A DNA stretch of 47,124 nucleotides. It comes from a virus. Of the stretch, positions 4,887-41,300 are shown one piece after another; within the stretch, counting starts at the first letter, position 1, and each line of letters starts with the position of its first letter. The stretch lies in IMG/VR virus record IMGVR_UViG_3300042731_005056, positions 1 to 47,124 of that record. One strand, written 5' to 3'. The translations under genes and the position numbers were made by a program. The notes under the pieces were generated by a model. It was not told the origin of the DNA and searched no databases. It was given only the letters and a program-made list of their open reading frames with translations.

Positions 4887-5218
4887 TTCTCTGGGCGATC
4901 CTCTTCCGTATGCCGATGTGCCATCAACAAACCGTACCCCGCAATGTCTCGCGCTGGGCTCTCTCCGAATGCGTCTTTGCGGTTGGCCACTCGAAACAAT
5001 TTATCGATGATCCTAACCACTGCTAGCATGTCTGCGTATTGGTGAGGCTTCACTCCATCCGGATACAAAATCATCAGTATCCCACCCGAGTTGTCGAACG
5101 ATGACCCGTACGCGTAGTTTTTGGCATCCACCATGGATCCGATCTCTGCCCCCAAAGTCTTGTAGCGCCCCACTTTCTCCTCAGTAGCTGTCGCAGCTAA
5201 GCGCTCTGTCGAAGTCAT
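4883..5218 (-). CDS. conserved phage protein, possibly nucleotide-modification-associated (DUF1599-like)
   Basis: The 111-residue protein lies between SbcC and SbcD with 4-nt overlaps on both sides. Its core, NYAYGSSFDNSGGIL, then ILYPDGVKPHQY, VRIIDKLFRVA and DAFGESPARDIAGYGLL, resembles a small all-alpha phage family annotated as nucleotide-modification associated (DUF1599 or related). The pattern is a K/S-rich turn, an RIxDKLxR helix and a D-x-x-GY helix. Members often sit near nucleotide-metabolism or replication genes. The assignment is from remembered motif layout, not a search. The position inside the recombination nuclease operon suggests co-expression rather than complex formation. 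Confidence 0.7.
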   Translation of the reverse strand: MTSTERLAATATEEKVGRYKTLGAEIGSMVDAKNYAYGSSFDNSGGILMILYPDGVKPHQYADMLAVVRIIDKLFRVANRKDAFGESPARDIAGYGLLMAHRHTEEDRPEK

Positions 5219-8003: not shown

Positions 8004-9275
8004 TCAATCCCGTACCGCTGCGCGCATCTCAGCTTCGAGATCATCGACCTCTGTAGCATCTGACGCAGCTGCTTTCTTCGCACCTAACGACTTGGACTTG
8101 GCCACTCCGGACTTGCCCAACTTCTTTTTGCCATTGCCACTGGGGAGCTTAGTGCCTTTGGCTCTGGCAGCTTTAGAAGCCTTGGCAGCCTTCGCAGGAG
8201 CTTTTGATGCCTTGGCTTTCTTCTTTGCTGCAGGTGGAGGGTCTTCCTCTTCTTCCTCTTCCTCGTCCTCTTCTTCCTCGTCCTCTTCTTCCTCTTCCTC
8301 TTCTTCCTCGTCCTCTTCTTCCTCGTCCTCTTCTTCCTCGTCCTCTTCTTCCTCGTCAGGATCAGAATCGTCCTCTTCTTCCTCCTCTTCTTCCTCCTCC
8401 TCTTCCTCCTCCTCTTCCTCCTCCTCTTCCTCCTCCTCTTCCTCAACGCTCTCTGGCAATCCACCAGACGACCCCTGAGCCTCAGCAAGTTGCTTGGCTT
8501 CGTCTGGGTCTACTCCCTCCAAAATAGCCTGCATCTCGATAGGTGTTCGAGCAGGCATCAACCCATCCAAGTCATGCAACAAAGAATTCTCATCTGTGCT
8601 GAGAGGTTCACACTGTGCTTCCTTGATCGGAGCCTTACCAATCTTTCCCGTTGGGCGAACACGATAGTCAGTTTTGATCCCTTGACCTTCGCGAGTAATA
8701 GCGATGTCCTGCCCCTCCATCACATCAGTCATGTCCAGCTCATCGTTGAAAATGTCGAGAAGCTGCTTCCAAACTTTCGGCCCGTACGAATAGATCTGGA
8801 TCTTGGGGTCACCAACTTTGGGCAGTGTCTCCAAACCCTGAGCCTGCATCTCTGCCACATCGTTTGCCGTCCACTTCGGATCAGAGATGTCAATAATGTT
8901 GGAAAAGAACCGCTGCTTTGGCTGCAGCTGCTTGGCCATTTCCTTGTCCGCCGGATCAGAGGACCCCTTGAACTTGGCATGCTCATCACACACTGGACAG
9001 GGATCACTCTTCTTCCCAGGAGGCGTGTACCTGGGACACGTCAGATGAGCCTGGTTATTGTCATCAGGACCAATGGACCAGTGAATCCACATCTCGCGCC
9101 AAAACTGATGATGGTTGGGTCCCTCTTCCTGCCATGGGGGCAGAATTCGGATACGGTTCTTTCCTGTACGGGGCTTCCAATACAGTCGAGCAGCTGACTT
9201 GCCCCAGGCCGCCGCTCGGGCGGCCTCCTCAGCAGCTCTTTTCGCCACCTTTTTGCGATCAACCTTTGCGGGCAT
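8004..9275 (-). CDS. ssb: gp32-like single-stranded DNA-binding protein with giant acidic linker
   Basis: The start is the ATG at 9275 behind GGAGGA; the frame is open upstream but reads as non-coding there. The 423-residue protein begins with a basic helix and then has an OB-like core: RLYWKPRTGKNRIRILPPW near 28-46 and a zinc site (CPRYTPP, then CPVCDEH, near 75-95) as in T4-type gp32. After residue 265 comes an almost pure Glu/Asp run of roughly 70 residues, then a Lys/Ala-rich histone-H1-like tail. gp32 proteins normally end in a short acidic tail, so this arrangement is unusual. It coats single strands and recruits replication partners. Confidence 0.85.
   Translation of the reverse strand: MPAKVDRKKVAKRAAEEAARAAAWGKSAARLYWKPRTGKNRIRILPPWQEEGPNHHQFWREMWIHWSIGPDDNNQAHLTCPRYTPPGKKSDPCPVCDEHAKFKGSSDPADKEMAKQLQPKQRFFSNIIDISDPKWTANDVAEMQAQGLETLPKVGDPKIQIYSYGPKVWKQLLDIFNDELDMTDVMEGQDIAITREGQGIKTDYRVRPTGKIGKAPIKEAQCEPLSTDENSLLHDLDGLMPARTPIEMQAILEGVDPDEAKQLAEAQGSSGGLPESVEEEEEEEEEEEEEEEEEEEEEEEEDDSDPDEEEEDEEEEDEEEEDEEEEEEEEEDEEEEDEEEEEEEDPPPAAKKKAKASKAPAKAAKASKAARAKGTKLPSGNGKKKLGKSGVAKSKSLGAKKAAASDATEVDDLEAEMRAAVRD
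8239..8444. repeat. low-complexity GAGGAA/GAAGAGGAC tract inside SSB gene
   Basis: About 206 bp consist almost only of GAG, GAA and GAC codons on the minus strand (CTTCCTC repeats on the plus strand), encoding the acidic linker of the SSB. Sub-repeats such as CCTCGTCCTCTTCTT recur every 12-15 nt. The tract is prone to slippage, so its length may differ between isolates or assemblies. On the plus strand it produces a misleading poly-Ser open frame. Confidence 0.9.
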
Positions 9276-9309
9276 TGCCGGTTCCTCCTCTTTCGCCAGT
9301 TGTTGGCTT

Positions 9310-9849
9310 TCAGTCCCGCCGTACGGGACGTTTCTTCTTCTTGACCGATGATGACCGTGCCTTTTGGACAGCCCGCTCACGTGCCGCCTCACGAAGCACA
9401 ACAGGGTCTGCAGCTCCCTCAGCCCGATAGTTGGCTCCCAAGCTGATGAGCATCTCCTTACGCTGGATGAAGGACTCCCGCCCCTGGACCAACAACCCGT
9501 GCTCCTTGCGCGCACGAAGCAGAGCTTCCAGCAGCTGCTGGTAGTCACCGTCCGTAATCACTGAATTTTCCACCATTTTTTCAGTGAGACGCACAGGCGG
9601 GTTTGAAGTGAGCGCCTCTTGGCGCACCCGATGGTCAGTGCGCGCGTATAATTGCTCCAGCCTGTTCTTGAGTGTGGCCACCTTGTCCTTGGCCAACTCA
9701 GACAGCATGGCCCACCGCGCAAACTTGCGAGCTTGCTCAACAAATTCACCATCCAAATCTTGGGCATCGATACCAATTTCGTCATCGATATCGAGGTCAT
9801 GAACCACCCCATCAATTTCACACGTCACCTGAATGTTGATGTCTGCCAT
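9310..9849 (-). CDS. helical phage protein, candidate UvsY-like recombination mediator
   Basis: This 179-residue protein is encoded just upstream of SSB and downstream of the DNA polymerase. After a beta-rich first 30 residues it is almost wholly helical, with basic helices (LKNRLEQLYARTDHRVRQEA, LLEALLRARKEHG, FIQRKEMLISLGANYR) and a Lys/Arg-rich tail (VKKKKRPVRR). Size, charge and its place between SSB and the recombinase fit a UvsY-type loader that helps the recombinase displace SSB. Sequence similarity to T4 UvsY is not obvious by eye, so the name is a context-based inference. Confidence 0.75.
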   Translation of the reverse strand: MADINIQVTCEIDGVVHDLDIDDEIGIDAQDLDGEFVEQARKFARWAMLSELAKDKVATLKNRLEQLYARTDHRVRQEALTSNPPVRLTEKMVENSVITDGDYQQLLEALLRARKEHGLLVQGRESFIQRKEMLISLGANYRAEGAADPVVLREAARERAVQKARSSSVKKKKRPVRRD

Positions 9850-13916: not shown

Positions 13917-14959
13917 TAGCGCACCTCCATATCAGACACAGTTTGCAGCAATGCGGCTGCAACGGTCTTGGCCATTTCAACTGTATTGATCCTAAATCGA
14001 CCTGTAAAGAACTCGAAGGTGTGCTTCTTGTCCTTGACAGGAACCTTTCGCACCTCCCATCCATGGTTTTTCTGAATCCACGCCACCATCCACGGGTTGC
14101 AATCCACAAGCGCCCCAGAAGCCGCGTTTGTCCACATGCGGCACACATGCATACCGTTGTAGAAAAACGTCCAGCATGAGGCTCTACGATTGACCACCAA
14201 CCCCTTTCCGTACTGCTCCACGAACCAATTTGCGGCGATCTCCCTCTGCACCCGAGACGAAGCTGTTGGGTACTTCCAACTCTCGGGCAACGCTGGCGGC
14301 TCCCCCACGTCCTGAAAAATCACCTTCATGAATTTGTCAACTGGACGACCTGTGTCTAGGTAAGGCACTCGCGCCTTGGGGGGACCTGGACGCTTACGTC
14401 TAGATCGCTTCTTGGGTCGCTTTTTCTTCTTCGTCTGTAACTGCCGCCCATGCCGCTGCACCTTGGCAAAATCATCCAACCCCACCTCCGTGGAGTCTTC
14501 AGGACGCTCCAAAGCACGTATGACACGAGACAGCACCTTGGCATCGGTGTCAGTAAGGTCTTCAACCTGGCTAGGCTCAGCATCTCCTGCAGCCTTGTGG
14601 TACACCGACTCGCACAGCTTGCGCAGCTCACACTCCAACTCGGGACAGTACGATGCCTCTTCCTCTGAATACCAAAGCCGTCCAAAGCACGCAGTTCGCT
14701 GCACCGCCGCGCACACTGCCGGGCTCTCGCTTTTGAGCACCCGTCCTATCACTAAATCAAACTGATCAACTTCTTGTTTTTCTTCCTCCTCTGGTTCTAC
14801 GATCTCAGGATACTCCCCTGGATCTTCTGGTACAGCACGGTCAACCCCATCCAATGCCGCCTTCATCTTAGGAGTCACCAAGATCGGAGCTACATCCGTG
14901 CTGTTGTTTTCCCCCAATTTGGAGAACTTCTCCTTCTCGAAATTCATTTTAGTGGCCAT
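13916..14959 (-). CDS. hypothetical protein with Cys cluster and basic linker
   Basis: The start is placed at the ATG at 14959 inside the end of the sigma-like gene; a TTG 13 codons upstream is less likely. The 347-residue product has an acidic N-terminal third and then a Cys cluster (CFGRLWYS, then CPELECELRKLC) like the small metal-binding knots in other phage proteins. A very basic linker follows (KKKKRPKKRSRRKRPGPPK). The C-terminal domain is rich in aromatic residues (NWFVEQYGKG, CWTFFYNGMHVCRMW, FEFFTGRFRI). It may bind nucleic acid. I do not know the family. Confidence 0.7.
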   Translation of the reverse strand: MATKMNFEKEKFSKLGENNSTDVAPILVTPKMKAALDGVDRAVPEDPGEYPEIVEPEEEEKQEVDQFDLVIGRVLKSESPAVCAAVQRTACFGRLWYSEEEASYCPELECELRKLCESVYHKAAGDAEPSQVEDLTDTDAKVLSRVIRALERPEDSTEVGLDDFAKVQRHGRQLQTKKKKRPKKRSRRKRPGPPKARVPYLDTGRPVDKFMKVIFQDVGEPPALPESWKYPTASSRVQREIAANWFVEQYGKGLVVNRRASCWTFFYNGMHVCRMWTNAASGALVDCNPWMVAWIQKNHGWEVRKVPVKDKKHTFEFFTGRFRINTVEMAKTVAAALLQTVSDMEVR

Positions 14960-15500
14960 GAAAAAGCCTACAGACAGCCGTTTCGATTCGTTCGACAATG
15001 CGGTCCACCTTTTTGTAGTGAATCCCTAGATACTTCGCAAAATGCGAATTCCTAACCAAGCAATGATCTTTTGGAACTCGTGAACACTCAGACCAACGCC
15101 CTTTCACAAAGGCGTGAAACTCTTCCGGTGGATCAACCATGAGAGACCACACACGATGTCCGTCTTCGTCCAGCTCCACCTGCGCCTGCTCCATCAAAAA
15201 TTCCAATGACGTTAGCTCTGTGGGTGGTTCTTGGTAATTGTCCACAGACATTTCACGATGGTATGCACGCAACGCTTCCATCTCACGTGCATGAACACGC
15301 AAGACCTTCAGCCGATACCACAGCAATCGTTGGTACAGATATGTGGAGAACTTGCGACCGCCATTAGGTACCCACAATGAAGAAGCCTTGATCGCTTCTT
15401 CCCATGCGTCGTTTCGGATGTCATCTATGTCTAACCAACGGCACTCTCGTACAAGCATCGCAGCAAAGTAGTCGATCAGTCGTTTGTACGAGAGTACCAT
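14949..15500 (-). CDS. sigma-factor-like protein
   Basis: This 183-residue protein resembles a minimal sigma-70 family member. The segment DIDDIRNDAWEEAIKAS, then FSTYLYQRLLWYRLKVLR (residues 24-69), has the sigma region 2 pattern (acidic helix, KFSTYL, basic helix). The end, FAKYLGIHYKKVDRIVERIE, has the region 4 helix-turn-helix pattern (YLG, then a recognition helix). A 60-residue spacer separates them. If functional it would redirect host RNA polymerase to phage promoters. It sits directly behind the CobT-like gene with no gap. Region 2 is divergent, so another DNA-binding role is possible. Confidence 0.65.
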   Translation of the reverse strand: MVLSYKRLIDYFAAMLVRECRWLDIDDIRNDAWEEAIKASSLWVPNGGRKFSTYLYQRLLWYRLKVLRVHAREMEALRAYHREMSVDNYQEPPTELTSLEFLMEQAQVELDEDGHRVWSLMVDPPEEFHAFVKGRWSECSRVPKDHCLVRNSHFAKYLGIHYKKVDRIVERIETAVCRLFHGH

Positions 15501-15502
15501 AG

Positions 15503-17371
15503 CTAAGCTACCTTCCTAGTCGTCAAGCGTTTCCCTTTGCGCAACATCACATCGAGCTGTTCCAACATGACTTTGGGCAGGTCTTCCACTGAGTTGATCT
15601 CAACACTGTTGGAGTAGTAGTCCTTCACATGCGGGCTACAAATCCCCACAGCAAACAGCTCCACGATACTTTCGAGCTGCTTCACCACCTCCTTGAGATA
15701 CCGCGTATGGTCTGACGTGCACCTGGTCACGTTGGGCTGCGGATACCCATCGTTGAACACGAACAGAATTTTACGGGTCTCAGGAAACTGAATCAGACGA
15801 GACGCAGCCAATCGCACCGACTCAGCATCGTACGTGTTGGCCATCGAATTTCGACTCATCTGAATGCAGCGATGCTTGACATGCCGCCAGTCCTCATCAA
15901 AGGACTTGTACACGCCAACCCACAAGTCCCCCCAACGCGAGAAGACCTCTCGCTCTTCCGGAGTTGCTCGGTTGTAGCGAGCCAGACCTGTATCGTAATC
16001 CCGAGTAGAGTACCCACAGATCTCAAACGGGATACCCAACTCGTGCAACACTTCCCCAAACAACATGGCTGCCTTCGCAGCCAAGTCCACTTTGTAGCCG
16101 TGCATGCTGCCAGAGTGATCCACCCACAAAGACGCCCGCGTGTTGAAGCTGGGAGCAACCACACGTTGGCGAAACACACGCTTGCTGGTACCAATGGGAA
16201 CACGAAACGCCGCACGGGGATCAATCTTACCGCGACGTTTACCTGACTCCCATCGGTCCTGCTTGCTGCTCAATAGATTCAAACGCATTCGCTTGAGCAG
16301 CACATTCACCATCGCCCGAGACTGCCGCAAGAAAGCAGCAGACTCTACCTTGTCACCACCCTCGATACGAACCAGCATGTCACCCTCAGTGGTGTAAATG
16401 AAATAGCGATCCTCCTGAGCAATGTCTTGCTTGCACGCATCTCGGATCATGTTCTGACGAGAACGCAGCTGCTCGTCTCTTCGCATCTCCTCATCGGTGG
16501 CATCCAACGCGTCGTCACCTTCATCAGGACCACCACCTGGCTGCTCATCCTCGTCATCCTCGTCACCGTCCCCCTCAGCTCCATCCGATTCCTCCTCATC
16601 CTCTTCCTCACCATCTGACTCGGCTTCGCTGTCCTCTTCTCCTTCTTCTCCGTCCTCTTCTTCTTCACCCTCACCAGATGCCCCCGACTCTTCGTCATCC
16701 TCTTGCTGCGGAGGCGTTAACGGAGGCTGTACATCCTCCTCTTCGTCTTCCTTCTCCTGTAGAACCTGCATCACAGTGGCTGCGTGGTCGATCACCTCCT
16801 GTGTATTGGAAAAGCCCTTGGACTGCTCAATGAGCCCCAGAACCTTCTGCAGCTTGGGCCATATCTCGGGCTCCTTTTTGAGGACGTCCTCAGTGAACCA
16901 ATGGCTCGGCCCAGAACACCCCAGAACAGCCATGCCCTGACACAGCCGTCCAAACGGCGATAGCTCAGACCACCGCTCCTTGAGTTGCTTCAATGCCCAA
17001 TCGCTGCAGCATGCCAAGTTGACCCCAGCTCCACGCCACAGCTTGCGCATCTCTGATTCAACACGCCCATCTTCCAACGCCTGGACGATGTTCCACTTTT
17101 TACGGTCATGTGACTCCAACGACTTCAGAGCATTGAAGTCGCTGAAGATCACATGAGCCACTTCATGATCGAGAAAACCCTGAATAGCGTTCAGGAACTC
17201 TTGCGATGCGTTATCGGGAATAACCGGCAAGTAGATCGTCCGGCCATCCGTCATGCACGCATCATGTTTGAAGATCACCTTGATCTTGTACTTCTCAGCC
17301 AGAATGCGCCCGAGCTTTTCGAGTGCACTCTCAAAGTACCTGATCTTGGATCGGCTCAAATACTGAGACAC
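15503..17371 (-). CDS. cobT: CobT-like VWA-domain protein with N-terminal HExxH motif
   Basis: The 622-residue protein has three parts. The N-terminal region carries HEVAH (residues 69-73) and, about 27 residues on, ALEDGRVE, spacing typical of a gluzincin-type metal site and of CobT-like proteins. A long Asp/Glu/Gly/Ser linker spans about 215-290. The C-terminal VWA domain has the MIDAS motif DHSGS within ASLWVDHSGSMHG near residue 415. CobT with CobS normally drives the CobN cobaltochelatase. Phages lack CobN but often keep this ATPase/VWA pair, where the target is unknown. It is encoded 13 nt after the CobS-like ATPase. Confidence 0.88.
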   Translation of the reverse strand: MSQYLSRSKIRYFESALEKLGRILAEKYKIKVIFKHDACMTDGRTIYLPVIPDNASQEFLNAIQGFLDHEVAHVIFSDFNALKSLESHDRKKWNIVQALEDGRVESEMRKLWRGAGVNLACCSDWALKQLKERWSELSPFGRLCQGMAVLGCSGPSHWFTEDVLKKEPEIWPKLQKVLGLIEQSKGFSNTQEVIDHAATVMQVLQEKEDEEEDVQPPLTPPQQEDDEESGASGEGEEEEDGEEGEEDSEAESDGEEEDEEESDGAEGDGDEDDEDEQPGGGPDEGDDALDATDEEMRRDEQLRSRQNMIRDACKQDIAQEDRYFIYTTEGDMLVRIEGGDKVESAAFLRQSRAMVNVLLKRMRLNLLSSKQDRWESGKRRGKIDPRAAFRVPIGTSKRVFRQRVVAPSFNTRASLWVDHSGSMHGYKVDLAAKAAMLFGEVLHELGIPFEICGYSTRDYDTGLARYNRATPEEREVFSRWGDLWVGVYKSFDEDWRHVKHRCIQMSRNSMANTYDAESVRLAASRLIQFPETRKILFVFNDGYPQPNVTRCTSDHTRYLKEVVKQLESIVELFAVGICSPHVKDYYSNSVEINSVEDLPKVMLEQLDVMLRKGKRLTTRKVA

Positions 17372-28780: not shown

Positions 28781-29185
28781 TCAGCTAGGACGAGATCTGT
28801 TGGACATGACCTCATGAACCAGTGTTTCTGCCTGACCTGGGTCTGCAGTGATCTCCTCATCCGAAAGGACAATGAGTGCTGACCCATTGGTTAGCTCAAT
28901 GTTTGGAAAGTCCGTCTTCTTGAGATCCACCAACCCATCCCGCTCTAGCTGCTGGTACGCTGCATTGAACATGCAAGCCGCTATGTTCACCGTGTCGAAT
29001 GTGAGTCGCACCTCGACCTCTGGCTCTACACGTACCTTTTGCACTGCGTCCGTCAACGTCTTCGTATGTCCGTGCAACTTTCCGTTTCGTACTAGTTCCG
29101 CATATCCTTTGCGGACCATGACCCGCAGCGTCTCTAAGATGAAGTCAGTTAGCTCGTCATCGTTGTCTGGTTGCTTCTCGCTCAT
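28781..29185 (-). CDS. hypothetical protein
   Basis: The ATG at 29185 overlaps the helicase stop as ATGA. The 134-residue acidic product (MSEKQPDNDDELTDFILETL) has helical ends and a central beta region (VEPEVEVRLTFDTVN), then LTNGSALIVLSDEEITADPG. It is the last gene of the helicase operon before the terminator. Co-translation with the helicase suggests a helper role, but no loader motif is visible (no Walker A). Confidence 0.65.
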   Translation of the reverse strand: MSEKQPDNDDELTDFILETLRVMVRKGYAELVRNGKLHGHTKTLTDAVQKVRVEPEVEVRLTFDTVNIAACMFNAAYQQLERDGLVDLKKTDFPNIELTNGSALIVLSDEEITADPGQAETLVHEVMSNRSRPS

Positions 29186-30480
29186 CCTTCCCTCACTACC
29201 TCGAAGAAACACATTCGTTCAAACGCCGTCTTGATCTTAATCGTTTTATACCTCGGACCGTTGCGGTTCTTGGCTATGTAAAGACGCATGATGTCGTCAT
29301 CAACTTCTTCCTTCGTTTGGTTGATAGTGATCACCACATCGCTGATGTTCATCTTGCCAATGTCCTCGGACACATCCTGCTCTGTATGTGTCTCCATGGA
29401 GATAGCCCCACGAGTCGCCTGTGTCGCCGTCCACACCGGAAGGCACATCTCACAAGCCAGTCCCCGCAGCTCCTCCGCAATGGCCGACAGCTCGTCTCGC
29501 TTCTCCTTGTAGTGTCGTGGAGGTTGGAGCAAGTCCAAGTAATCCACAATGATCAGGTCTGGGTCAAATCCCAAACTCATGCACTGCATGATGTGCGAGC
29601 GCAATGTGGCCACTGACGCTTGTTTGGTGGGGTACTCTTTGATCATCAGCGAGTTACCATAACGCTTGCCGTAACGTTCCAGCTTGCGTACGAGCTTCAC
29701 TTCTTCTTCGATGAGATCGTTGACAGGTATTTTGGTCAGTGCTGAATCATATCGAGCGGATACCTCGTCTTGGCTCAACTCCATGGTGTAGTGCAACACC
29801 TTCTTTTTGATCGTCAGTGCTCGCTTGGCACAATGACCCAAAGCAATTGACTTGCCTCGGTTGGTAGGGGCCATCCAAATCCCCAACTGCTTGACCTTGA
29901 GCCCGCCGTTGAGCAGAAGGTCTAACTCGGTCACGCCTGTGGGCATCGTGCGATAATAGGCACGGTCCACCTGGCGTCGCAGCCTTTCCGGCCAGTCGAT
30001 GAAATACTGCTCACCCAAGTCCAGTGTTTGGGTACCGACCTGCACCGCTTGGCGAACCATCTGCTCTATCTCCTCGAATTTCTCCTCTTTAAGCAATGCT
30101 GGCGATTCGAGCACAGCAGCTTTGATGGCTTGATGCCTACAGAAAGTCGACACTTCCTTCGCGATATACTCTCGATCTTGTACTTTGTTGTGAAGTCTCT
30201 GGAACACATTCGAGTATAGTGGTATATCAGATTTAGTGATCTTTGGTCGTGGACGTAGCCGACAAGCTTTGAGAATCTCGTTTTTCAACGCTTGCGCTCC
30301 CACACGCATCTGGTAGTCCAAGTAGTAGTCCCTCATCGTGCAGAAAAACCAGGCCAAGATCGAATCACTGAAGTATTCAGGTTGAACAAGATCGTGGGTC
30401 ATCATCAGGAAGTCGTAGTCCTGAAACATGAGCGCCAAGATCTCGACCTGAAAGTCACGGGAGAATTTGAATTGTGACAT
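29182..30480 (-). CDS. dnaB: DnaB-like replicative helicase
   Basis: This 432-residue helicase has an N-terminal helical domain (to about 130). The RecA-like motor follows, with Walker A APTNRGKS (about 204-211), a catalytic-Glu region HYTMELSQDEV, Walker B LIIVDYLDLLQPP (about 309-321) and an arginine-finger-like end (YIAKNRNGPR). It matches phage DnaB/gp41-type helicases that unwind at the fork with a separate primase. GTG (30483) and ATG (30480) are adjacent; I take ATG. The start codon lies inside a 31-bp palindrome, which suggests direct control of initiation or transcription. Confidence 0.9.
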   Translation of the reverse strand: MSQFKFSRDFQVEILALMFQDYDFLMMTHDLVQPEYFSDSILAWFFCTMRDYYLDYQMRVGAQALKNEILKACRLRPRPKITKSDIPLYSNVFQRLHNKVQDREYIAKEVSTFCRHQAIKAAVLESPALLKEEKFEEIEQMVRQAVQVGTQTLDLGEQYFIDWPERLRRQVDRAYYRTMPTGVTELDLLLNGGLKVKQLGIWMAPTNRGKSIALGHCAKRALTIKKKVLHYTMELSQDEVSARYDSALTKIPVNDLIEEEVKLVRKLERYGKRYGNSLMIKEYPTKQASVATLRSHIMQCMSLGFDPDLIIVDYLDLLQPPRHYKEKRDELSAIAEELRGLACEMCLPVWTATQATRGAISMETHTEQDVSEDIGKMNISDVVITINQTKEEVDDDIMRLYIAKNRNGPRYKTIKIKTAFERMCFFEVVREG

Positions 30481-30491
30481 CACAAATTCTC
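30461..30491. promoter_or_regulatory. 31-bp palindrome over the helicase start codon
   Basis: GAGAATTTG (30461-30469) and CAAATTCTC (30483-30491) are perfectly complementary. Inside them GAATTGTGA and TCACAAATTC form a second, near-perfect inverted repeat. The whole spans the helicase start codons at 30478-30483. It could be an operator for a dimeric repressor, an origin-type site, or an RNA hairpin hiding the start codon. Confidence 0.5.
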
Positions 30492-30494
30492 GCG

Positions 30495-30511
30495 CGCTGC
30501 AAAGGGTATCA
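30495..30511 (-). promoter_or_regulatory. operon-head element, copy 3 (TGATACCCTTTGCAGCG)
   Basis: This is the same 17-mer as at 12665-12681, placed 15 nt before the helicase start codons. On the plus strand the same bases (AAAGGG) lie 10 nt before the ATG of the small plus-strand gene at 30516. It therefore sits between two divergent genes and may serve both. Confidence 0.4.
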
Positions 30512-30515
30512 AACG

Positions 30516-30728
30516 ATGTACAACCACTTGGTAGATCCTATACACGTTATCCAAAGCGTTGCCGACAGCCTACGTGGGCATGGCCAAGGACAAAAGAAGG
30601 CCGCCCACTGGATTCCTCCAGTATCAGAGAAGTTCGAGAGCTGGGCTCAAGAGCTAGAGAGGGCTATCCATCTGTTGACGGAGTCATCCCCTCCAATTGC
30701 TGAACCCGAAGCTCCAAACGAGTCGTAA
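30516..30728 (+). CDS. small plus-strand hypothetical protein
   Basis: This 70-residue protein (MYNHLVDPIHVIQSVADSLR) is encoded on the plus strand in a gap with no minus-strand gene. It has the composition of a real small helical protein (KKAAHWIPPVSEKFESW, AQELERAIHLLTES) and an acidic Pro-rich tail. AAAGGG lies 10 nt before the ATG. Its last 65 bases run against the end of the minus gene at 30664. Divergent placement next to the helicase suggests a regulator, but no DNA-binding motif is clear. Confidence 0.5.
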   Translation: MYNHLVDPIHVIQSVADSLRGHGQGQKKAAHWIPPVSEKFESWAQELERAIHLLTESSPPIAEPEAPNES

Positions 30729-30939
30729 ACTCCCAAAGAACTTCGAGTTTCCTGTGCAAGGCGAACTGATCGTCCCGCAACACCCGCACCATCGCCTCCC
30801 GATCCATGGCTTTGGACACAGACTCTTCCAGCCGAGAGCAAGAACTGCCCTCTAAGGACAAGCCCCGTCCATTACCGTTACCGGACGTCACAACCTGTGA
30901 CGGACGCTCTACAACGCGATCCATGGGGTGCTCCTTCAT
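30664..30939 (-). CDS. small hypothetical protein
   Basis: The start is the ATG at 30939, which overlaps the stop of a 48-codon membrane gene (ATGA). The 91-residue product (MKEHPMDRVVERPSQVVTSG) has a Gly/Asn/Ser-rich middle. Its C-terminal helix with coiled-coil character is FALHRKLEVLWEFTTRLELR. It may be a small tethered coiled-coil protein acting with the membrane peptide encoded just before. Family unknown. Confidence 0.55.
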   Translation of the reverse strand: MKEHPMDRVVERPSQVVTSGNGNGRGLSLEGSSCSRLEESVSKAMDREAMVRVLRDDQFALHRKLEVLWEFTTRLELRVQQLEGMTPSTDG

Positions 30940-31082
30940 CCGATCCGTCTGATCACTGTAAGACTGTTCTTTGTTGCCGTAGAAGTCCCATTGGGAATAC
31001 GGTATGATCCTCTTCCCACATGGATACGTCCACATACGTACCCTAAGATCAAACCACCTACGAAAACCAAAATACTAACCAT
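30936..31082 (-). CDS. 48-residue membrane protein
   Basis: This short gene is easily missed. ATG at 31082 lies inside the end of the upstream gene (GGAGATGG), and the frame stops at TGA overlapping the ATG of the next gene. The product has one clear membrane helix at residues 2-17 (VSILVFVGGLILGYVC). A basic Gly/Ser/Thr-rich cytoplasmic-type tail (GRIHVGRGSYRIPNG) follows. The exact stop/start overlaps on both sides support it. It could be a small inner-membrane anchor or holin-like protein, but one helix and no other evidence leave this open. Confidence 0.6.
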   Translation of the reverse strand: MVSILVFVGGLILGYVCGRIHVGRGSYRIPNGTSTATKNSLTVIRRIG

Positions 31083-31284
31083 CTCCAAATTTCATGGGCT
31101 TCACCCAATGGTTTAAGCGGGGTGCTACCCCCATCGCAGGGAAACACATCTGTCGGTTGTCGCTTGGCCACTTGGTCACAGAAGACACCCCAACCGGCTT
31201 GGCGTTGTCTGGAGGCTTACACTTATGGGTTGTTGGGGAGGAATTTGGCACAAGGAAGGACATCTCAAGTTGCTTGAGCATCAT
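31075..31284 (-). CDS. small hypothetical protein
   Basis: ATG at 31284 follows AACAAGG, 11 nt after the upstream stop. The 69-residue product (MMLKQLEMSFLVPNSSPTTH) has Cys, Pro and Lys-rich segments (KCKPPDNAKPVG, NRQMCFPAMG, APRLNHWVKPMKF) and little predicted regular structure. The paired cysteines could be structural. It is coupled by overlap to the 48-residue membrane gene. I do not recognise it. Confidence 0.55.
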   Translation of the reverse strand: MMLKQLEMSFLVPNSSPTTHKCKPPDNAKPVGVSSVTKWPSDNRQMCFPAMGVAPRLNHWVKPMKFGDG

Positions 31285-31294
31285 AAGCCTTGTT

Positions 31295-31975
31295 CTACAG
31301 CTTGTGCTGTTTCTGAAGCCGTTGATAGACCGGGTGCTTACGGAGCCACTGGACGTCGAAATACCCAACGTCTGCTGCAGAGAAGCGCAACAAGACTTCC
31401 TCCTCCGTAAGCTGCCATGATGAGATGAGACGATTCAACCGTTCGGTGTTTATCTTGTCAAGCTGGTCATCGCTAGCAATCACACGTCGTGAAAGAGACT
31501 GGACTTTTCGTCTTGGGTGATCTTCGTCGCGAATCAAACGTTGGTAGGCAATGGCTCTGTCTATGGCGGGGAACTTAGATCGAAGGCTAGCTAACTCATA
31601 GACTTTGGGGTGGCGACGAAACCATTGATCGAACCAATAGAACTGCGCCTGTATGTAGTCTTCGTAATCCATGTCCAGTCGGTCAGCGATGACCGCTGCT
31701 TTTTGAAAGTAGACAAAGGCACGGTTCTTTTTGGGATCGGTGGTTTTGATATAGCGCAGTGCGGGACGGTGCAAGTAGTGACCCAATGCTTCTTCATAAG
31801 CATAGGCCATTTGTTTAGCTTTGCGACGCAGCTCGTCTTCAGTGCTTTGGGGCGCCTCTCGCTTTAGCTTCCCTTCAAGAAGCTCTTTGGCTCGTTGGGC
31901 AAGCTCCAGTACGTCCTGCCGCGCCGTCGTTCGAGTGGATGAGGTTCTTTTTCGACGAGGGGTTGTGCTGCCCAT
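31295..31975 (-). CDS. helical hypothetical protein
   Basis: The 226-residue product is read from an ATG at 31975, the first in-frame ATG near the end of the preceding gene. The frame itself stays open upstream for 549 more codons. From residue 20 it looks fully coding: helical and rich in aromatics (RRKAKQMAYAYEEALGHYL, FQKAAVIADRLDMDYEDYI, AQFYWFDQWFRRHPKVYEL), ending QRLQKQHKL. No family is recognised. The ribosome site is weak, and the overlap with the preceding gene is 112 nt, so the true start could be elsewhere or belong to a longer product. Confidence 0.6.
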   Translation of the reverse strand: MGSTTPRRKRTSSTRTTARQDVLELAQRAKELLEGKLKREAPQSTEDELRRKAKQMAYAYEEALGHYLHRPALRYIKTTDPKKNRAFVYFQKAAVIADRLDMDYEDYIQAQFYWFDQWFRRHPKVYELASLRSKFPAIDRAIAYQRLIRDEDHPRRKVQSLSRRVIASDDQLDKINTERLNRLISSWQLTEEEVLLRFSAADVGYFDVQWLRKHPVYQRLQKQHKL

Positions 31976-32790
31976 ATTTTCAGCTCGATGCAAAAGTCTT
32001 CCCAGATCTCGCTTCTCCTGGTCCTCAGTAGTCGAATTTCCAGATACAGCGCGTTGTGTACCTCGCTCCACAATACGTCGACGTTGAACTCGTGGTGCCA
32101 AATCAGCTCCAGATTCAGATCTTGAGTGAACCGTTTGAGAAACTTTTCGATCCTTCTTTTGAAGTCCCGCTCGAAGTCCCTGATGAAGTTGCGCGCTGCC
32201 ACCGTGTTCCAGATCACGATGTGATCGGTCATTTCGGTTCGCAGCGCGTCCTTGATCAGCTCTACTTCTTTTTGAGCGCGTTGTTGCTTCATCTCGTAGG
32301 GTATCTTCACGCCTACCGGCAGAGCGTTGCGCAACTCCCTCAGAGTGATCTGTCCGCGTTGCCACCGCTCGACCATCTCCTCGAAGTCGTTTTTCGTCAC
32401 GGCCGTGTTGTACCTCGTGTTGTAAGAGGGCATCGGCAGAAGTTCGGCGGCTTGCTTCTTGCTGAGAATTCCGGCGTTCACTAGATCGTGAAGTTGGTTG
32501 GCCTTGTCTTGTGGATCTTTCAAAAACCTCAGAGGACCGGATGGTGTCATCACGGCGTTTGCGTTTCGTAGCCCTTGGAGCCTTTGCTCCTCCAGGGCTA
32601 GGTCCACGGCGGACTGGAACGGCGGCGTGTACCAGTGCCTCCTTGTCCCCGTCATCGGAAGCGCTGTGGTGAGCTGTACGGGCTCGGGGTAGTGGGGGTG
32701 GGTCTTGGCGTCCCACAGCTCCTTGGGCGGCTTCACGGCGCTGCTGGAGCGCTCCAGCAGGGACTTTCTCGGAGGCTTTATGGCCGACAT
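31864..32790 (-). CDS. helical hypothetical protein
   Basis: This 308-residue protein starts MSAIKPPRKSLLERSSSAVK. The first 90 residues are Pro-rich and extended. The rest is helical and charged (NDFEEMVERWQRGQITLREL, ARNFIRDFERDFKRRIEKF, WSEVHNALYLEIRLL). Near the end it has LERRRGRTYWS, an internal echo of the AYW tails. No enzyme motif is visible. It is overlapped over its whole length by another open frame on the same strand, but its residue pattern looks the more protein-like of the two. Confidence 0.7.
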   Translation of the reverse strand: MSAIKPPRKSLLERSSSAVKPPKELWDAKTHPHYPEPVQLTTALPMTGTRRHWYTPPFQSAVDLALEEQRLQGLRNANAVMTPSGPLRFLKDPQDKANQLHDLVNAGILSKKQAAELLPMPSYNTRYNTAVTKNDFEEMVERWQRGQITLRELRNALPVGVKIPYEMKQQRAQKEVELIKDALRTEMTDHIVIWNTVAARNFIRDFERDFKRRIEKFLKRFTQDLNLELIWHHEFNVDVLWSEVHNALYLEIRLLRTRRSEIWEDFCIELKIWAAQPLVEKEPHPLERRRGRTYWSLPNEPKSFLKGS

Positions 32791-32793
32791 CCG

Positions 32794-33066
32794 CTACCCC
32801 CCTTCCGGTACGTCTGGATAGCTGAACATCTGTTCCAGGAGTGCGGGCTGACCCCCCTCTACCAGTTTCCAGAATTGATGATCTTCTTCGTTGACAATCG
32901 CTGTCCACTGTTCGAGATGTTTCATCTGATCTTGACTCAATGTGCCCCACTGAATTGGTTTGATCCCGAAGATCTGACTGAGGAATTCGTTGTAAGCCAA
33001 TGGGCTCAGTGTTTCTTGAATCTTTGGTTGATCTTCTTTGATTTCTTGTTCGCCGAGGCAGTACAT
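32794..33066 (-). CDS. small hypothetical protein
   Basis: The ATG at 33066 has AAGGAG 9 nt upstream and is preferred over a GTG 12 codons earlier. The 90-residue acidic product (MYCLGEQEIKEDQPKIQETL) has a tail-assembly-like or adaptor-like helical look (LAYNEFLSQIFGIKPIQW, QMKHLEQWTAIVNEEDHQFW). Three bases separate it from the 308-residue gene. The arrangement of a small acidic protein followed by a longer helical one recalls portal or tail chaperone pairs, but this is only a resemblance. Confidence 0.65.
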   Translation of the reverse strand: MYCLGEQEIKEDQPKIQETLSPLAYNEFLSQIFGIKPIQWGTLSQDQMKHLEQWTAIVNEEDHQFWKLVEGGQPALLEQMFSYPDVPEGG

Positions 33067-33221
33067 CTTCTTGTTCTCCTTGGGTTTTTTGGTGTTTGGC
33101 ACCCAATTTGCTACGCGCGCCTGCGCCCGCCCGCGCGCGCGACTTATCTCTTTTTTCTTTATGATTGCTAACTGTTACCTTTTCAACAGATTCATTTGTT
33201 ATTTGCTGTTGTAACTTTAGG

Positions 33222-33294
33222 GTCTTTCTAATCTCTTCCATTCCGTTCGGTTCTCCTTCGGAGAACCTCTCTTCATTACAGAGATTAGAAAGAC
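33222..33294. repeat. large cruciform: 14-bp inverted repeat around an 8-bp hairpin
   Basis: GTCTTTCTAATCTC (33222-33235) and GAGATTAGAAAGAC (33281-33294) are exact reverse complements. Between them GGTTCTCC-TTC-GGAGAACC (33249-33267) forms a second perfect stem. Alternating CG runs flank the structure (33115-33150 and 33297-33310). This nested arrangement is typical of protein-recognised DNA or RNA structures such as origins. Confidence 0.75.
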
Positions 33295-33411
33295 AAACGC
33301 GCGCGCGCGTGGAAATTTTGAAATTCTCTTGTGATCCCGAGGGTTTGGATTGGATTTTGGCTCCCTCGGACGCCGGGTGGGTTACCTCGGGTGCGAGAGT
33401 TGAAAATCCAG

Positions 33412-33526
33412 GATCAGATGCAAGATCAACATGAAGATCAAATTGATCCTGAGTTTGATCTTGTTGATCCTGGATCTGATCCTGTGGTTTTGAAGACACC
33501 TCGGGTCTATGAGAGTTGATCTGATC
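33412..33526. repeat. cluster of ten GATC sites with 21-bp imperfect repeats
   Basis: GATC occurs at 33412, 33424, 33436, 33445, 33457, 33466, 33473, 33478, 33518 and 33523, against less than one expected in 115 bp. A 21-bp unit starting GATCCTG is repeated imperfectly at 33445 and 33466. If coding on the minus strand it gives Asp-Gln repeats; if non-coding it resembles a methylation-sensitive control site. Confidence 0.7.
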
Positions 33527-33636
33527 TTGTATTTCAGAAGCCGATTTGCGGCGTCGGAGCAGTTGCTGGCGGCGGGAAATATTCGGTAAGCTAGGGAACA
33601 AAAGTTGTTCCTGCTGTTCCATGAGAACGGCTCCCT

Positions 33637-33733
33637 ATCCGAGGCCGAATTCGTACCTCGGATCAATATGATCTTTTCAACATTTCATCACCAACACCAC
33701 AGGCACCCATCGACAGCTGAACTCGTGTTCAGC
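33637..33733. repeat. two further hairpins in the 33623-33864 gap
   Basis: ATCCGAGG (33637-33644) pairs with CCTCGGAT (33656-33663). GCTGAAC (33716-33722) pairs with GTTCAGC (33727-33733) around a TCGT loop. Neither is followed by a convincing T run on either strand. The 242-nt gap between 33623 and 33864 holds no gene I trust. Confidence 0.5.
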
Positions 33734-33864
33734 CACCTTTTCAATCTCAAGCAAAACCATATGAAACGACTACTGGTTTTCTTGCTTACGGCACGCCAGG
33801 ATCAAAGTATCGCATGTAACGATTTCAGCTACGCTATGGCAGCACTGGAAACGGGTCAAGCTCT

Positions 33865-34353
33865 TTAGTTTTGCTTGCTGTACCTTTTTTGTAACTGCGC
33901 GTAAGCAGCATTGATTTTTTGGAGGGTCTCAACTGACCCACCCCGGTCTGGATGGTGTTCGAGGCACAGCGTCTTGTAGGCTGCCTTAACGACGCTCCAG
34001 GGAGCCGTAGGTTGCAGATGCAACACAGCATGGGCATCCTGCTCCAGCGGTCCTATAAAGCCTCTGGCGCTGTCTGACGTACTGCTGCCATTGCGTGCCG
34101 CAATGCGCAACTGAACCCAGTCTGGGAGCACCCGATAGTCCACGTGCACAAAGAACCGACGCGCTGCTGCGACCAGCATGGGCAGTTTGTCAGCATGCAC
34201 CCACCAACAGTTGCGGTCCTTGTCCCACTGCCGATAGCTCAGAGGTTTGACACCCAGACGAATGAAGTCGTGGAAGCGACGGTTGTGCGAGAACTTCATC
34301 CGCGCAAACTGAGTATCGTCGTTCCACTCTGAGACGGTCAGGACTTGGGCCAT
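33865..34353 (-). CDS. J-domain protein
   Basis: The C-terminal 60 residues of this 162-residue protein are a DnaJ domain. HAVLHLQPTAPWSVVKAAYK leads into LEHHPDRGG with the invariant HPD (134-136) and the final helix INAAYAQLQKRY. J domains stimulate Hsp70 (DnaK). The first 95 residues form a separate unit (FSHNRRFHDFIRLGVKPLSY, then WDKDRNCWWVHADKL) that recalls small HARP-like DNA-contact domains in phage helicases. The protein may direct host DnaK to a nucleic-acid complex. It starts inside the end of the SLOG-like gene with GGAG upstream. Confidence 0.85.
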   Translation of the reverse strand: MAQVLTVSEWNDDTQFARMKFSHNRRFHDFIRLGVKPLSYRQWDKDRNCWWVHADKLPMLVAAARRFFVHVDYRVLPDWVQLRIAARNGSSTSDSARGFIGPLEQDAHAVLHLQPTAPWSVVKAAYKTLCLEHHPDRGGSVETLQKINAAYAQLQKRYSKQN

Positions 34354-34697
34354 TCCCAGTTCTCCGTGGAGAATGTCACACCCCCATCCTGTTCATGTAC
34401 AACGATAATTGGTTTGTTGGAACAGCGCGCGTAGTTGCACGTGCCATTAAGATGACGTGTTCCATTCATGAACAAGATCACACCGTCACTAAGATCAATA
34501 GCAGTACGGCGGGGATGGCTGTGTACGGGGTAACCCAGCTTATTTGCGATCTTCTTGACATGCACCTTGATACCCTTTGCACCGGCCACAAACACGGTAC
34601 AGGGACCTAGTTGTCGAATGGCAGTGTCGATAAGATCAAGTTTGGTAAAGGTGGATGAACCAACTATGCTGACTCGGATGTTTTTTGTTGCAGGCAT
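34338..34697 (-). CDS. SLOG/Rossmann-like small protein
   Basis: The start is the ATG at 34697. The 119-residue product has an alternating strand-helix pattern of the SLOG (DprA/LOG/YspA-like) type: RVSIVGSSTFTKLDLIDTAI, then TVFVAGAKGIKVHVKKIANK, YPVHSH, DLSDGVILFMNG and PIIVVHEQ. SLOG folds bind nucleotides or nucleotide-derived ligands and occur in DNA processing and defence sensing. The glycine in VAGAKG fits the phosphate-binding turn. The ligand is unknown. It overlaps the membrane protein gene by 34 nt. Confidence 0.72.
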   Translation of the reverse strand: MPATKNIRVSIVGSSTFTKLDLIDTAIRQLGPCTVFVAGAKGIKVHVKKIANKLGYPVHSHPRRTAIDLSDGVILFMNGTRHLNGTCNYARCSNKPIIVVHEQDGGVTFSTENWEWPKS

Positions 34698-35305: not shown

Positions 35306-35480
35306 GTTGACACTCCTCTCGAAGCTGACGTGTTCGCTGCAAAGCTTCGATCACAGTAGGCCGCTGGTCTACAACTATCGGATGAGTAGTTCCGCAATGC
35401 GGACAATGCTCAGAATTGTCTATCTCTTTGGCTTCGATGTAGTAGTGCCCACAGCGGGCGCATCGATAGACAGATCGCAT
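35298..35480 (-). CDS. zinc-ribbon protein
   Basis: This 60-residue protein has a classic ribbon: CARCGHYYIEAKE followed by CPHCGTTHP, then a short basic helix (VIEALQRTRQLREEC). It overlaps the methyltransferase end by 61 nt and the next gene by 8 nt. AAGG lies 8 nt before the ATG. It may be a small nucleic-acid or partner-binding module; no specific role can be read. Confidence 0.68.
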   Translation of the reverse strand: MRSVYRCARCGHYYIEAKEIDNSEHCPHCGTTHPIVVDQRPTVIEALQRTRQLREECQHG

Positions 35481-36175
35481 ACCACCAGCCTTCTGATCGC
35501 TTCAGATGGATCGATATCGCTGATGATATAATGCCGATCAAGTTTTTCGCAAACTTGGCCAACCACACCAGACCCACAAAAAGGGTCCAGCACACGGTCA
35601 CCTGGCTGGGTTGACTGCGCGACCAGAAGCTCGATCAAGTCTGCAGGTTTTTCGGTGGGGTAGAAGCGTTTCCCTTTGAGTCGTTTGAAGGACAGCACAT
35701 CCGAAGGTCTAGGATCGTTCAATCGTCTATGCTTGCCTTTTCGCAGCACTTTTTCGGCCATTAGGATGAACTCGTACTGCGCGCGATAGTGATAACCCAT
35801 GCCAGCGATTTGCTTGTCCCACACAAGCGCCTTCCAGTATTTGAACCCCTGGTCAATTATGGGAGGTTTCACTACATCTCGGGTCTCTTCATCACAGAAG
35901 AGGTACAGATGGGTGCCCTTGCGCAACACGCGGTACAGTTCTCGAAACAGATCTGGGAAGCGGCTGTTGGGAAAGATCTCGAACCACTCGTTGCTCGAAG
36001 CCTTGGACTTCTTGAGTCGAGTAGTGGTGCCCATCGTACGCCACTTTTCAAGCGACTCATAAGGTGGATCGGTGATTACTAAATCCACTGATTCTGATGG
36101 AATCGTCTGCAGCAACTCCACTGCGTCTGCTCGACAAATGTGCCCCTTGGGAGATCTAACTATTCGTTTTGCCAT
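35420..36175 (-). CDS. site-specific DNA methyltransferase (beta-type N6/N4)
   Basis: The ATG at 36175 follows GGGAGGACGG and is preferred over a longer GTG frame. The 251-residue enzyme has motif IV first (DLVITDPPYESLEKW, DPPY at 36-39). A target-binding segment and TEKP (about 174) follow, then the AdoMet motif DPFCGSG (about 197-203). This is the beta-class order. DPPY favours adenine-N6 methylation, though N4-cytosine is possible. No restriction partner is adjacent, so it is probably an orphan for host-restriction evasion or regulation. The recognition site is unknown. It is divergent to a plus-strand lipoprotein gene 26 nt away. Confidence 0.88.
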   Translation of the reverse strand: MAKRIVRSPKGHICRADAVELLQTIPSESVDLVITDPPYESLEKWRTMGTTTRLKKSKASSNEWFEIFPNSRFPDLFRELYRVLRKGTHLYLFCDEETRDVVKPPIIDQGFKYWKALVWDKQIAGMGYHYRAQYEFILMAEKVLRKGKHRRLNDPRPSDVLSFKRLKGKRFYPTEKPADLIELLVAQSTQPGDRVLDPFCGSGVVGQVCEKLDRHYIISDIDPSEAIRRLVVCDLSIDAPAVGTTTSKPKR

Positions 36176-36201
36176 CCGTCCTCCCGTATGCTCTTCGCAC
36201 C

Positions 36202-36420
36202 ATGAAACTTGCGGTGCTGGCGTGCCTTCTTGCGTGTTCAAGTTGTGTAGGGGCGATCTACACAGAGCCCAAGATACTTCGTCGAGTTGATTGTGAGTTT
36301 GTACCCACTACGGGAATTCCTTGTGCGTACCGAATCCCATTGAAAAAGGATCAACTAATTTGGCTGGACTTGCTTTACCTAGAAGGAAATCGAATGACCA
36401 AAGGTAAGCCAGTCAAATGA
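36202..36420 (+). CDS. small lipoprotein on the plus strand
   Basis: A 72-residue frame exactly fills the gap between the methyltransferase start and the endolysin stop. It begins MKLAVLACLLACSSCVGAIY, a textbook lipoprotein signal with possible lipidated Cys at 12 or 15. A short mature part follows (LRRVDCEFVPTTGIPCAYRI) with a Cys pair, and a basic end. The protein pattern is convincing, but no Shine-Dalgarno site is visible. Being next to the endolysin it could be an outer-membrane spanin-type lysis protein, though it lacks the usual Pro-rich stretch and is on the other strand. Confidence 0.68.
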   Translation: MKLAVLACLLACSSCVGAIYTEPKILRRVDCEFVPTTGIPCAYRIPLKKDQLIWLDLLYLEGNRMTKGKPVK

Positions 36421-39797: not shown

Positions 39798-41300
39798 CTA
39801 CTTTCCTATTTCGATCTTGAAACACTCCTCAGCACGATAGTCGTGCAACCGCTTCATCGAATGTCGAGTGAGGTACGGATGTGTAAAATCTGCTGTGTCG
39901 ATGACTGTTAGGTGATCAACGTTACCTCCTTTTCGCAATCCACGTCCAACGCGCTGCAGTGTCCGAATGGAAGACTTGCCTCCTCCAGCCAAGACCAGCG
40001 CGTCGATGTTTGGGATGTCCACACCTTCATCCAGGATGGACGTAGCAATGATCACTTTCAGCTCCCCTTTGCGAAAGTCATCAAGTGCTTTCTGACGAAC
40101 CTCTGAAGTCTCTTGACCGTTGATGAACTGGTGAGGGATGAAACCTTGCTGGGGGGATTGCCACAACTTCGCATCGAGAATCTCACCGTGTTTGATCTCC
40201 TTGACCAACATCAACACAGAGAGACCTTGGTTCACCAATTCAGCGGTCAACAGACACAGTTTGGTGTTCCGCCACGTGTTTTCAACGATGCCTAGCTGAT
40301 AGACTTCTTGCCACTTGGTTCGTTTGGCAATCACAGGTTTGGTGATCTTGTGAACCTGTATGGTGGGCTGAACACTGATCCCGCGATCAATGAGTTCCTT
40401 GTTGCGCACCGTGTGAGCCACGGGTCCGGTCACCCCGATGAGTCTGAGATCGGCTCCGTCGCTGCGTTTGAGCGGTGTTCCACTGAGCCCAAAACGGTAA
40501 TAGGCATCACAGAAACGCATGACCTGGTACCAGGAGTCACTGGCGACGTGATGACATTCGTCAGCAAAAACCACCTTCACGCTCTTGAGGAAGTTGCGAC
40601 ACTCATCCTTGCCGATCCGAGCGTACAACGTGTCCACTGTGGCCACGGTGACCCACCGTCCTGGGTTCCAGGCGCCGTCACCCACGACCCCCACATCCCG
40701 CGAGTCGTTGGGCTGCAACCCCAGGTAGGCCCGAAACATCTTGGAGGTCTGCCGCAGCAGCTCCAAGTTCGGGACCATGAACAACGTTGGCAGACGCAAC
40801 ATCTTGATAACTAAGGCAGAAATGACAGTCTTGCCCCCGTTAGTGGCTACAGCGGCTACTCCGCGACGAGCTGCGACCAGCGCTTGGGCACACTCGGGCT
40901 GGTAGTCAAACGGGTAGTCGAACCGGACTCCCTGCAGAGACAGCCCTGAGACTGGCTGTGGCTGCCCAGGACAGTTCCTCTGGTCATCAACCTGCACCTG
41001 GACCTGCTCTTTGCGCAGCGCCTTGAGGACGATTTGGGTGAGCCCTGCAGGGAAGGTGCGGGTGACCTGCTTGAACAGCTTGATTCGCCCATCCCACTGC
41101 TTGGACCTGTACTGTGCCGTGAACCGGTAGCCCGGCTGCAGGTAAGATGTGGCATCCAGGATGGGTTGAACCGGAAAGGTGCCCTCGATTTTGGCGTCCG
41201 TCCCCTGGATCACGATGGTGCAGCTGTACTGCTTGCCAATGGCCTTGGTTGCCCGCGCCTTGGATTGCTGGTGAAGCTTCGTGTAGTTCAATCGGCTCAC
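39798..41300 (-). CDS. uvsW: UvsW-like SF2 helicase
   Basis: This 500-residue helicase has an N-terminal domain (to about 125). Then come the SF2 motifs: AVATNGGKT (Walker A, 152-158), VFADECHH (DECH box, 247-250), LSGTPLKR (motif III, about 272) and, in the second RecA lobe, IIATSILDEGVDIP and TLQRVGRGLRKGG (motif VI). T4 UvsW unwinds R-loops and branched recombination intermediates and switches replication mode, and this protein should do the same. It begins at a GTG (41300) that overlaps the upstream stop, with GGGAG 8 nt before it. Confidence 0.9.
   Translation of the reverse strand: MSRLNYTKLHQQSKARATKAIGKQYSCTIVIQGTDAKIEGTFPVQPILDATSYLQPGYRFTAQYRSKQWDGRIKLFKQVTRTFPAGLTQIVLKALRKEQVQVQVDDQRNCPGQPQPVSGLSLQGVRFDYPFDYQPECAQALVAARRGVAAVATNGGKTVISALVIKMLRLPTLFMVPNLELLRQTSKMFRAYLGLQPNDSRDVGVVGDGAWNPGRWVTVATVDTLYARIGKDECRNFLKSVKVVFADECHHVASDSWYQVMRFCDAYYRFGLSGTPLKRSDGADLRLIGVTGPVAHTVRNKELIDRGISVQPTIQVHKITKPVIAKRTKWQEVYQLGIVENTWRNTKLCLLTAELVNQGLSVLMLVKEIKHGEILDAKLWQSPQQGFIPHQFINGQETSEVRQKALDDFRKGELKVIIATSILDEGVDIPNIDALVLAGGGKSSIRTLQRVGRGLRKGGNVDHLTVIDTADFTHPYLTRHSMKRLHDYRAEECFKIEIGK

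Follow-up and report, generated by a model that had tools for sequence, protein, structure and literature searches.

The IMG/VR virus record IMGVR_UViG_3300042731_005056, all 47,124 bases of which were analysed (the window in the following), carries on its minus strand an open reading frame (ORF) designated here as ORF775. It starts with ATG at 33622 and runs to 31295 through 775 sense codons; the absence of internal stops, which had been stated in a preliminary description of this DNA, was confirmed. Its middle part is overlaid, on the same strand and in another frame, by two shorter ORFs, g90 and g308. Within this overlap the long frame is under protein-level constraint, and 31295–33622 is very probably one gene which is coding over its full length. 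That g90 and g308 are also genes is moderately supported, and dual coding of ORF775 with both of them, over 401 codons, is favoured with moderate confidence. The parts of the locus are:

31295–33622, minus strand: ORF775, composed of an N-terminal part (N-part), a basic middle of low order and a conserved C-terminal domain; AGGGAG at 33631–33636.
33067–33622, minus strand: N-part of ORF775, with many DNA repeats, putatively origin-like.
32794–33066, minus strand: g90, 90 amino acids, probable gene over the middle of ORF775; AAGGAG at 33076–33081.
31864–32790, minus strand: g308, 308 amino acids, probable gene over the middle of ORF775; purine-rich site at 32797–32806.
31295–31860, minus strand: conserved C-terminal domain of ORF775, about 190 amino acids.

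Together, g90 and g308 occupy 1,203 nucleotides in one shared frame, which is offset from that of ORF775. Over 31864–32790 no stop codon is present in the ORF775 frame, as compared to 16.8 expected from the codon usage of the phage and 6.6 expected when the synonymous codons of g308 were shuffled; a stop-free outcome was obtained in 0 of 3,000 simulations under each of two codon nulls. Synonymous nulls were used in place of raw composition, since +2 frames of de novo origin are enriched in basic residues, as noted in a review (PMC8227390). The absence of stops was the reason why this case was picked, and therefore sites other than stops were examined. Third-base T occurs in g308 in none of 77 codons before a purine, where the base is always C, and in 21 of 33 codons before C; for g308 and g90 combined the values are 1 of 93 and 32 of 48 (Fisher, 1.3e-18). 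The fraction of T before purines never fell below 0.29 in 27 control genes of the window. The difference between the two T fractions is -0.64 in g308, and the lowest value among 197 long ORFs (from the window and 18 related loci, some of them near-duplicates, with ORF775 standing in for g308) was -0.47. A T before a purine is read in the long frame as Tyr, Cys, Trp or stop, and a C as His, Gln or Arg.

The same picture emerged when the long frame was compared, over g308, to a codon model which allows for context: 0 stops versus 11.4 expected (z -3.8), 4 residues of Phe, Ile, Met, Tyr, Trp and Cys versus 32.2 (z -6.4), and 53 Arg versus 28.6 (z +6.4). The stop deficit and the hydrophobic deficit were combined in none of the 27 control genes; the nearest were 39798–41300, with a hydrophobic z of -4.1 but 19 stops, and 5215–6303, with a stop z of -3.6 but a hydrophobic z of +4.7. 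From the deficits of stops, residues and third-base T it follows that the overlap is decoded as protein in the long frame. In principle, such a bias could also arise with the long frame untranslated, if a recently acquired gene had an extreme preference for certain codon contexts or if some other constraint acted at the nucleotide level. Codon context is indeed variable in this phage, and the gene at 5215–6303 strongly avoids T before AA, AG and GA; yet the contrast in g308 exceeds that of every other long ORF compared, and the avoided context matches exactly the amino acids which are lost in the long frame, so that this explanation appears very improbable.

The gene at 5215–6303 (minus strand, nuclease-like) deserves a remark of its own. 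Its +2 frame contains 4 stops versus 16.6 expected (z -3.6) with over-use of Tyr, Cys and Trp contexts (z +4.7), and T is found in 0 of 18 cases before AA and in 22 of 26 before GT. This pattern is probably one of codon context, since the longest open run there is 121 codons.

The length of the overlap, which had been described as far greater than that of any other shadow frame, is outstanding within the window, where the stop-free same-strand shadows of 27 other genes reach 200 codons at most. The statement does not extend to relatives: in 352 kb, comprising the window and the 18 related loci, three of which are near-identical, one longer out-of-frame same-strand overlap was present, with 321 codons and a guanine-plus-cytosine (GC) content of 60%. 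It is formed by the ORFs L010:14772–15794 and 14831–16435, occurs likewise in L008 and L009, and served solely as a control. Overlap length alone is thus no proof. Stop counts were likewise dropped as a sole proof, since any long open shadow, such as those in L010 and L012, scores well.

The C-terminal 190 codons or so had been considered clearly protein-like. On sequence comparison they form a conserved domain, with homologues in six IMG/VR contigs (L025, L026, L023, L002, L022 and L030); identities are 45% for L025, 37% for L026 and 24–33% for the other four. No sequence match of the domain above the cut-off was found in Pfam, PHROG, NCBIfam or PDB. A DnaJ-like gene is situated upstream of the domain gene in all six relatives and a DnaB-type gene downstream in five of the six, within the stretch fetched; the DnaB of L025 is 61% identical. 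The domain genes differ in length, with 222 codons in L002, 246 in L022, 295 in L030, 349 in L023, 546 in L025, and about 432–504 in L026, depending on the start. L025 and L026 carry the domain and a long, polar, low-order N-terminal part as a single ORF, for which reason both ends of ORF775 are assigned to one gene. The composition of the part preceding the domain is similar in both phages: it is basic and polar in ORF775, with an Arg plus Lys fraction of 0.20 and a fraction of order-promoting residues of 0.15, and the corresponding values in L025 are 0.19 and 0.18.

Two genes which happen to share a frame had been offered as an alternative to dual coding; in its full form, this would mean that a leader region is followed by g90, g308 and a C-terminal gene of its own, and that the long frame is stop-free by coincidence. 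The short domain genes of L002, L022 and L030 and the ribosome sites at g90 and g308 would suit such an arrangement. It was rejected, and we regard it as highly unlikely, because T before purines is avoided and stops are lacking where the context model expects 11.4, because the middle is constrained, and because of the long single ORFs in L025 and L026. In addition, a separate ribosome site for the domain is lacking in the vicinity of the overlap, where the in-frame starts at 31993, 31975 and 31810 reach only -4.2, -2.2 and -0.1 kcal/mol. The start codon of ORF775 at 33622 has an anti-Shine-Dalgarno energy of -8.2 kcal/mol, and the N-part is free of stops over 185 codons (P 0.0013, dinucleotide shuffles). 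In-frame starts at 33241 (-8.8 kcal/mol) and 32365 (-8.9 kcal/mol) could be the source of shorter forms of ORF775.

With the long frame established as a coding sequence, g90 and g308 become the weaker side of the overlap. Both had been called good genes. The ORFs are located where they had been reported, but the codon-position pattern which made them appear gene-like is largely a by-product of ORF775: because the third-position GC of ORF775 is low, the GC pattern of g308 would be expected with no second gene. GC by codon position was therefore withdrawn as a proof of g308; relatives share the low third-position GC in stretches of this gene where no second frame is open. The main competing explanation is that ORF775 is the sole gene, its middle being a disordered basic linker, and that g90 and g308 are open shadow frames, since GC-rich first and AT-rich third bases imitate a coding pattern one base along. 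We consider this less probable than not, though a serious possibility.

Translation signals speak for two genes. The anti-Shine-Dalgarno energy at g90, which is extendable to 33102 with a GTG start, is -8.5 and is equalled or bettered at 77 of 1,236 local positions; at g308 it is -11.7, equalled or bettered at 7 of 1,236. The start of g308 lies 3 nucleotides past the stop of g90. Two well-placed ribosome sites and such a stop-to-start spacing are not readily accounted for if both ORFs are shadows. The same holds for a bias at third bases of ORF775 codons with T as second base, which decides between Trp and Cys in the second frame: G was found in 11 of 20 such codons before G and in 2 of 32 before C or T (p 0.00014). 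The same test gave p >= 0.081 in the 27 control genes, and no effect at p < 0.1 was seen in the N-part, the C-terminal domain or the relatives. Accordingly, the second frame contains 12 Trp versus 5.6 expected (z +4.3) and 2 Cys versus 7.9 (z -3.8), values which are outside those of all 27 controls. The length of the open run in the second frame has a P of 0.031, given the residues and codons of ORF775.

A possible counterpart was noticed in L025, whose 546-codon ORF contains an embedded ORF of 109 codons in the same phase, ending, as judged by eye, at most about 11 codons away from the corresponding place relative to the domain. Residues 212–303 of g308 show a weak co-terminal similarity to it (P 0.013–0.039, shuffles). 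An alignment of the L025 DNA gave values for the three long-frame positions of 0.62/0.43/0.62 in the overlap versus 0.63/0.69/0.42 in the domain, which is suggestive only; a second gap setting yielded 0.73/0.62/0.77, and a third aligned nothing.

Several observations weigh against g90 and g308 as genes. The Trp/Cys test was picked after the data had been seen. The embedded ORF of L025 has a weak start (-3.8) and could be open by chance, with 0.7 stops expected and a probability of none of about 0.4. Searches with g308 as the sole query yielded no homologue at usable scores in IMG/VR, GTDB genomes, phage records or PDB, and neither g308 nor g90 had a usable match in Pfam, PHROGs, NCBIfam or PADLOC-DB; the Pfam matches of g308 were sub-threshold (E 0.004 and 0.02). 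g308 was also sought in the whole records of L002, L003, L023, L025 and L026 and was not found there, and the homologue searches revealed no close relative with a 308-amino acid ORF. Low third-position GC is present in the single-coded N-terminal parts of relatives as well (0.24–0.31 in L025, 0.40 in L026), and these low-order parts vary in length, which is in keeping with a plain linker. When the residues of ORF775 are kept, the second frame has 1 stop versus 5.2 expected with its own codon frequencies (P 0.02) or 3.3 with phage usage (P 0.13), values which can still be claimed for a shadow frame; a 320-codon shadow in L010 has 0 stops versus 5.6 expected, and phages with a higher GC content have chance shadows of a comparable kind. 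The codon typicality of the second frame (z 3.4) is within the control range of 1.0–6.1. An AlphaFold2 model of g308, computed from one sequence, was poor, with a predicted local distance difference test score (pLDDT) of 50, and fold searches with this model and with that of the C-terminal domain (pLDDT 53), both of which were too weak for use, gave nothing credible. The absence of A after codons with second-base T (0 of 53) had been taken as a further sign of the second frame and was withdrawn, as L010 (2 of 56) and L012 (3 of 43) are alike in this respect. Of the dual coding considered in the preliminary description, the constraint on ORF775 in the overlap can thus be retained, and the second frame is favoured, short of proof.

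Judged by distribution, the long gene would be the older one and g90 and g308, if they are genes, the newer ones: six relatives have the domain gene, and none of them has g308. Synonymous usage suggests the opposite order of age, the z value being -9.9 when the middle is read in the long frame and -5.1 for g308. This criterion is weak here, because codon usage is unusual throughout the N-terminal part in this family.

The first 185 codons had been noted as covering DNA with no other gene. This DNA is not featureless: the region 33103–33640 folds much better than shuffled sequences (z -7.2) and contains the two longest of the 7 inverted-repeat pairs found in the window. Its elements and the neighbouring genes are:

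33409–33484, no strand assigned: GATC-rich long inverted repeat, with 8 GATC sites between 33412 and 33478.
33222–33294, no strand assigned: second long inverted repeat, with arms of 35 nucleotides; fold z -6.9.
33297–33312, no strand assigned: first alternating CG tract, read as (T)RAR in the ORF775 frame.
33123–33141, no strand assigned: second C+G tract, within SRARAGAGAR of the ORF775 frame.
33865–34353, minus strand: DnaJ-domain protein, upstream neighbour of ORF775 (Pfam DnaJ, 3.5e-08).
29182–30483, minus strand: DnaB-type replicative helicase, downstream neighbour (PHROG 19, 5.5e-76; Pfam DnaB_C).

Folded as single-stranded DNA, the repeat at 33409–33484 has a z of -6.6. In the repeat at 33222–33294, the inner stem contains an AAGGAG site; the repeat also includes the in-frame ATG of ORF775 at 33241, and it could possibly serve for translation control of a shorter form of ORF775. 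An AT-rich stretch in the 5' part of ORF775 was identified by eye. In L025, the 5' part of the counterpart gene contains an inverted repeat with 38-nucleotide arms at 4254–4355 and GATC clusters, and the counterpart of the N-part has a fold z of -7.15. L023 shows a smaller GATC cluster (Asp-Gln) and an alternating CG tract (SRARARV), the reading frame of both being that found in the window, and inside the domain genes of L002 and L022 no such inverted repeat, GATC cluster or CG tract was seen. Near 31 kb the GC skew steps from approximately -0.16 to approximately -0.04, which fits an origin at this location and proves nothing. No Rfam family matched at the gathering score in the window, and weak microRNA matches in 31000–34400 were ascribed to chance. 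A sigma-70 promoter search of 30500–34000 yielded 1 site, below the yield from shuffled sequences.

Some further observations were made along the way. The DNA methyltransferase ORF L025:524–2224 (566 amino acids) resembles, from its translation, an interrupted form of the methyltransferase of the window (35420–36241, 273 amino acids), the interruption being an intein-like insert. By eye, L022:8646–11717 and L023:8572–13323 appeared as DnaB-type helicase and ribonucleotide-reductase-like ORFs with long intein-like inserts. The ORF at 8004–9548 (minus strand) of the window, single-strand-binding-like by eye, has a long, near-pure Glu/Asp run.

By analogy, ORF775 is most likely an initiator which acts like the O protein of lambda. 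The proposal rests on the position of the family gene, which has a dnaJ-like gene on one side and a dnaB-type helicase gene on the other, on a 5' part which may hold an origin (long inverted repeats, GATC clusters, CG tracts) and on a long, presumably disordered middle, rich in Arg, Ser and Gln, which is followed by the conserved C-terminal domain. ORF775 would bind the origin inside its own gene and recruit the helicase; g90 and g308 would each have a ribosome site on this messenger from which they are translated, so that 401 codons would code twice. The disordered middle could tolerate the overprint by avoiding Tyr, Cys, Trp and stop, while the other frame would keep a normal protein. The linker would have no fold to keep, and therefore a second frame could be maintained in it. 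We infer initiator function, origin function and the expression of any product from the sequence. As a full explanation, one through-read gene with overprinted g90 and g308 and a lambda-O-like role is held to be somewhat better than evenly placed. As to the stronger statement that 2.3 kb of a double-stranded DNA phage hold three layers, namely an initiator-like gene, an origin within it and two overprinted genes, with a linker shaped to tolerate the second frame, our judgement is evenly divided.

The origin of lambda is located inside gene O, and the N- and C-terminal parts of O are joined by a flexible linker (PMC6022878). The same source describes the features which ORF775 would have in common with O: an initiator gene whose interior holds the origin, with iterons in the form of inverted repeats and with an AT-rich stretch, and an N-terminal DNA-binding part, a flexible linker and a C-terminal part which meets the helicase loader. 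Both genes adjoin replication genes. In contrast, no sequence relation between ORF775 and lambda O was found, and ORF775 has a linker of about 400 residues with two candidate overprinted genes, whereas O comprises 299 amino acids overall. Membership of the lambda O family is not claimed. The N-termini of L023 and L026 looked winged-helix-like by eye, with no Pfam match for L023; the N-part of ORF775 in the window, judged in the same way, did not.

Same-strand, out-of-frame nesting with internal ribosome sites is familiar in phages from the gene pairs A/B and D/E of phiX174, but these overlaps extend over about 90–120 codons only and belong to a very small genome. In hepatitis B virus, both products of a long overlap are established. 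There, the polymerase spacer shares about 1,200 nucleotides with the surface gene, on the same strand and in a second frame, and a de novo origin of the spacer frame was proposed in the review (PMC8227390); hepatitis B virus differs in being a reverse-transcribing animal virus and not a double-stranded DNA phage. Same-strand +1 overlaps are common in double-stranded DNA viruses, and a survey (PMC8903798) gives a median of 14 nucleotides for +1 overlaps, as compared to 1,203 nucleotides here, and names +1-type overlaps of more than 2,000 nucleotides for positive-sense single-stranded RNA viruses. In the accessible text of the open-access literature on overlapping phage genes, no like same-strand dual coding in a phage replication initiator was found.

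Long overlaps on one strand are a familiar feature of small viruses, but those of double-stranded DNA viruses mostly comprise few nucleotides (PMC8903798). If true, the 401-codon case would point to disordered linkers as sites where new phage genes start. The context test, which compares third-base T before purines with third-base T before C, requires a single genome and is applicable to any phage genome. Should g90 and g308 be shadows, a disordered, Arg/Ser-rich ORF would yield a convincing false gene one base along, and the case would be a warning for gene callers. Either way, an uncharacterised family of genes adjacent to dnaB, with origin-like DNA in its interior, is brought to notice.

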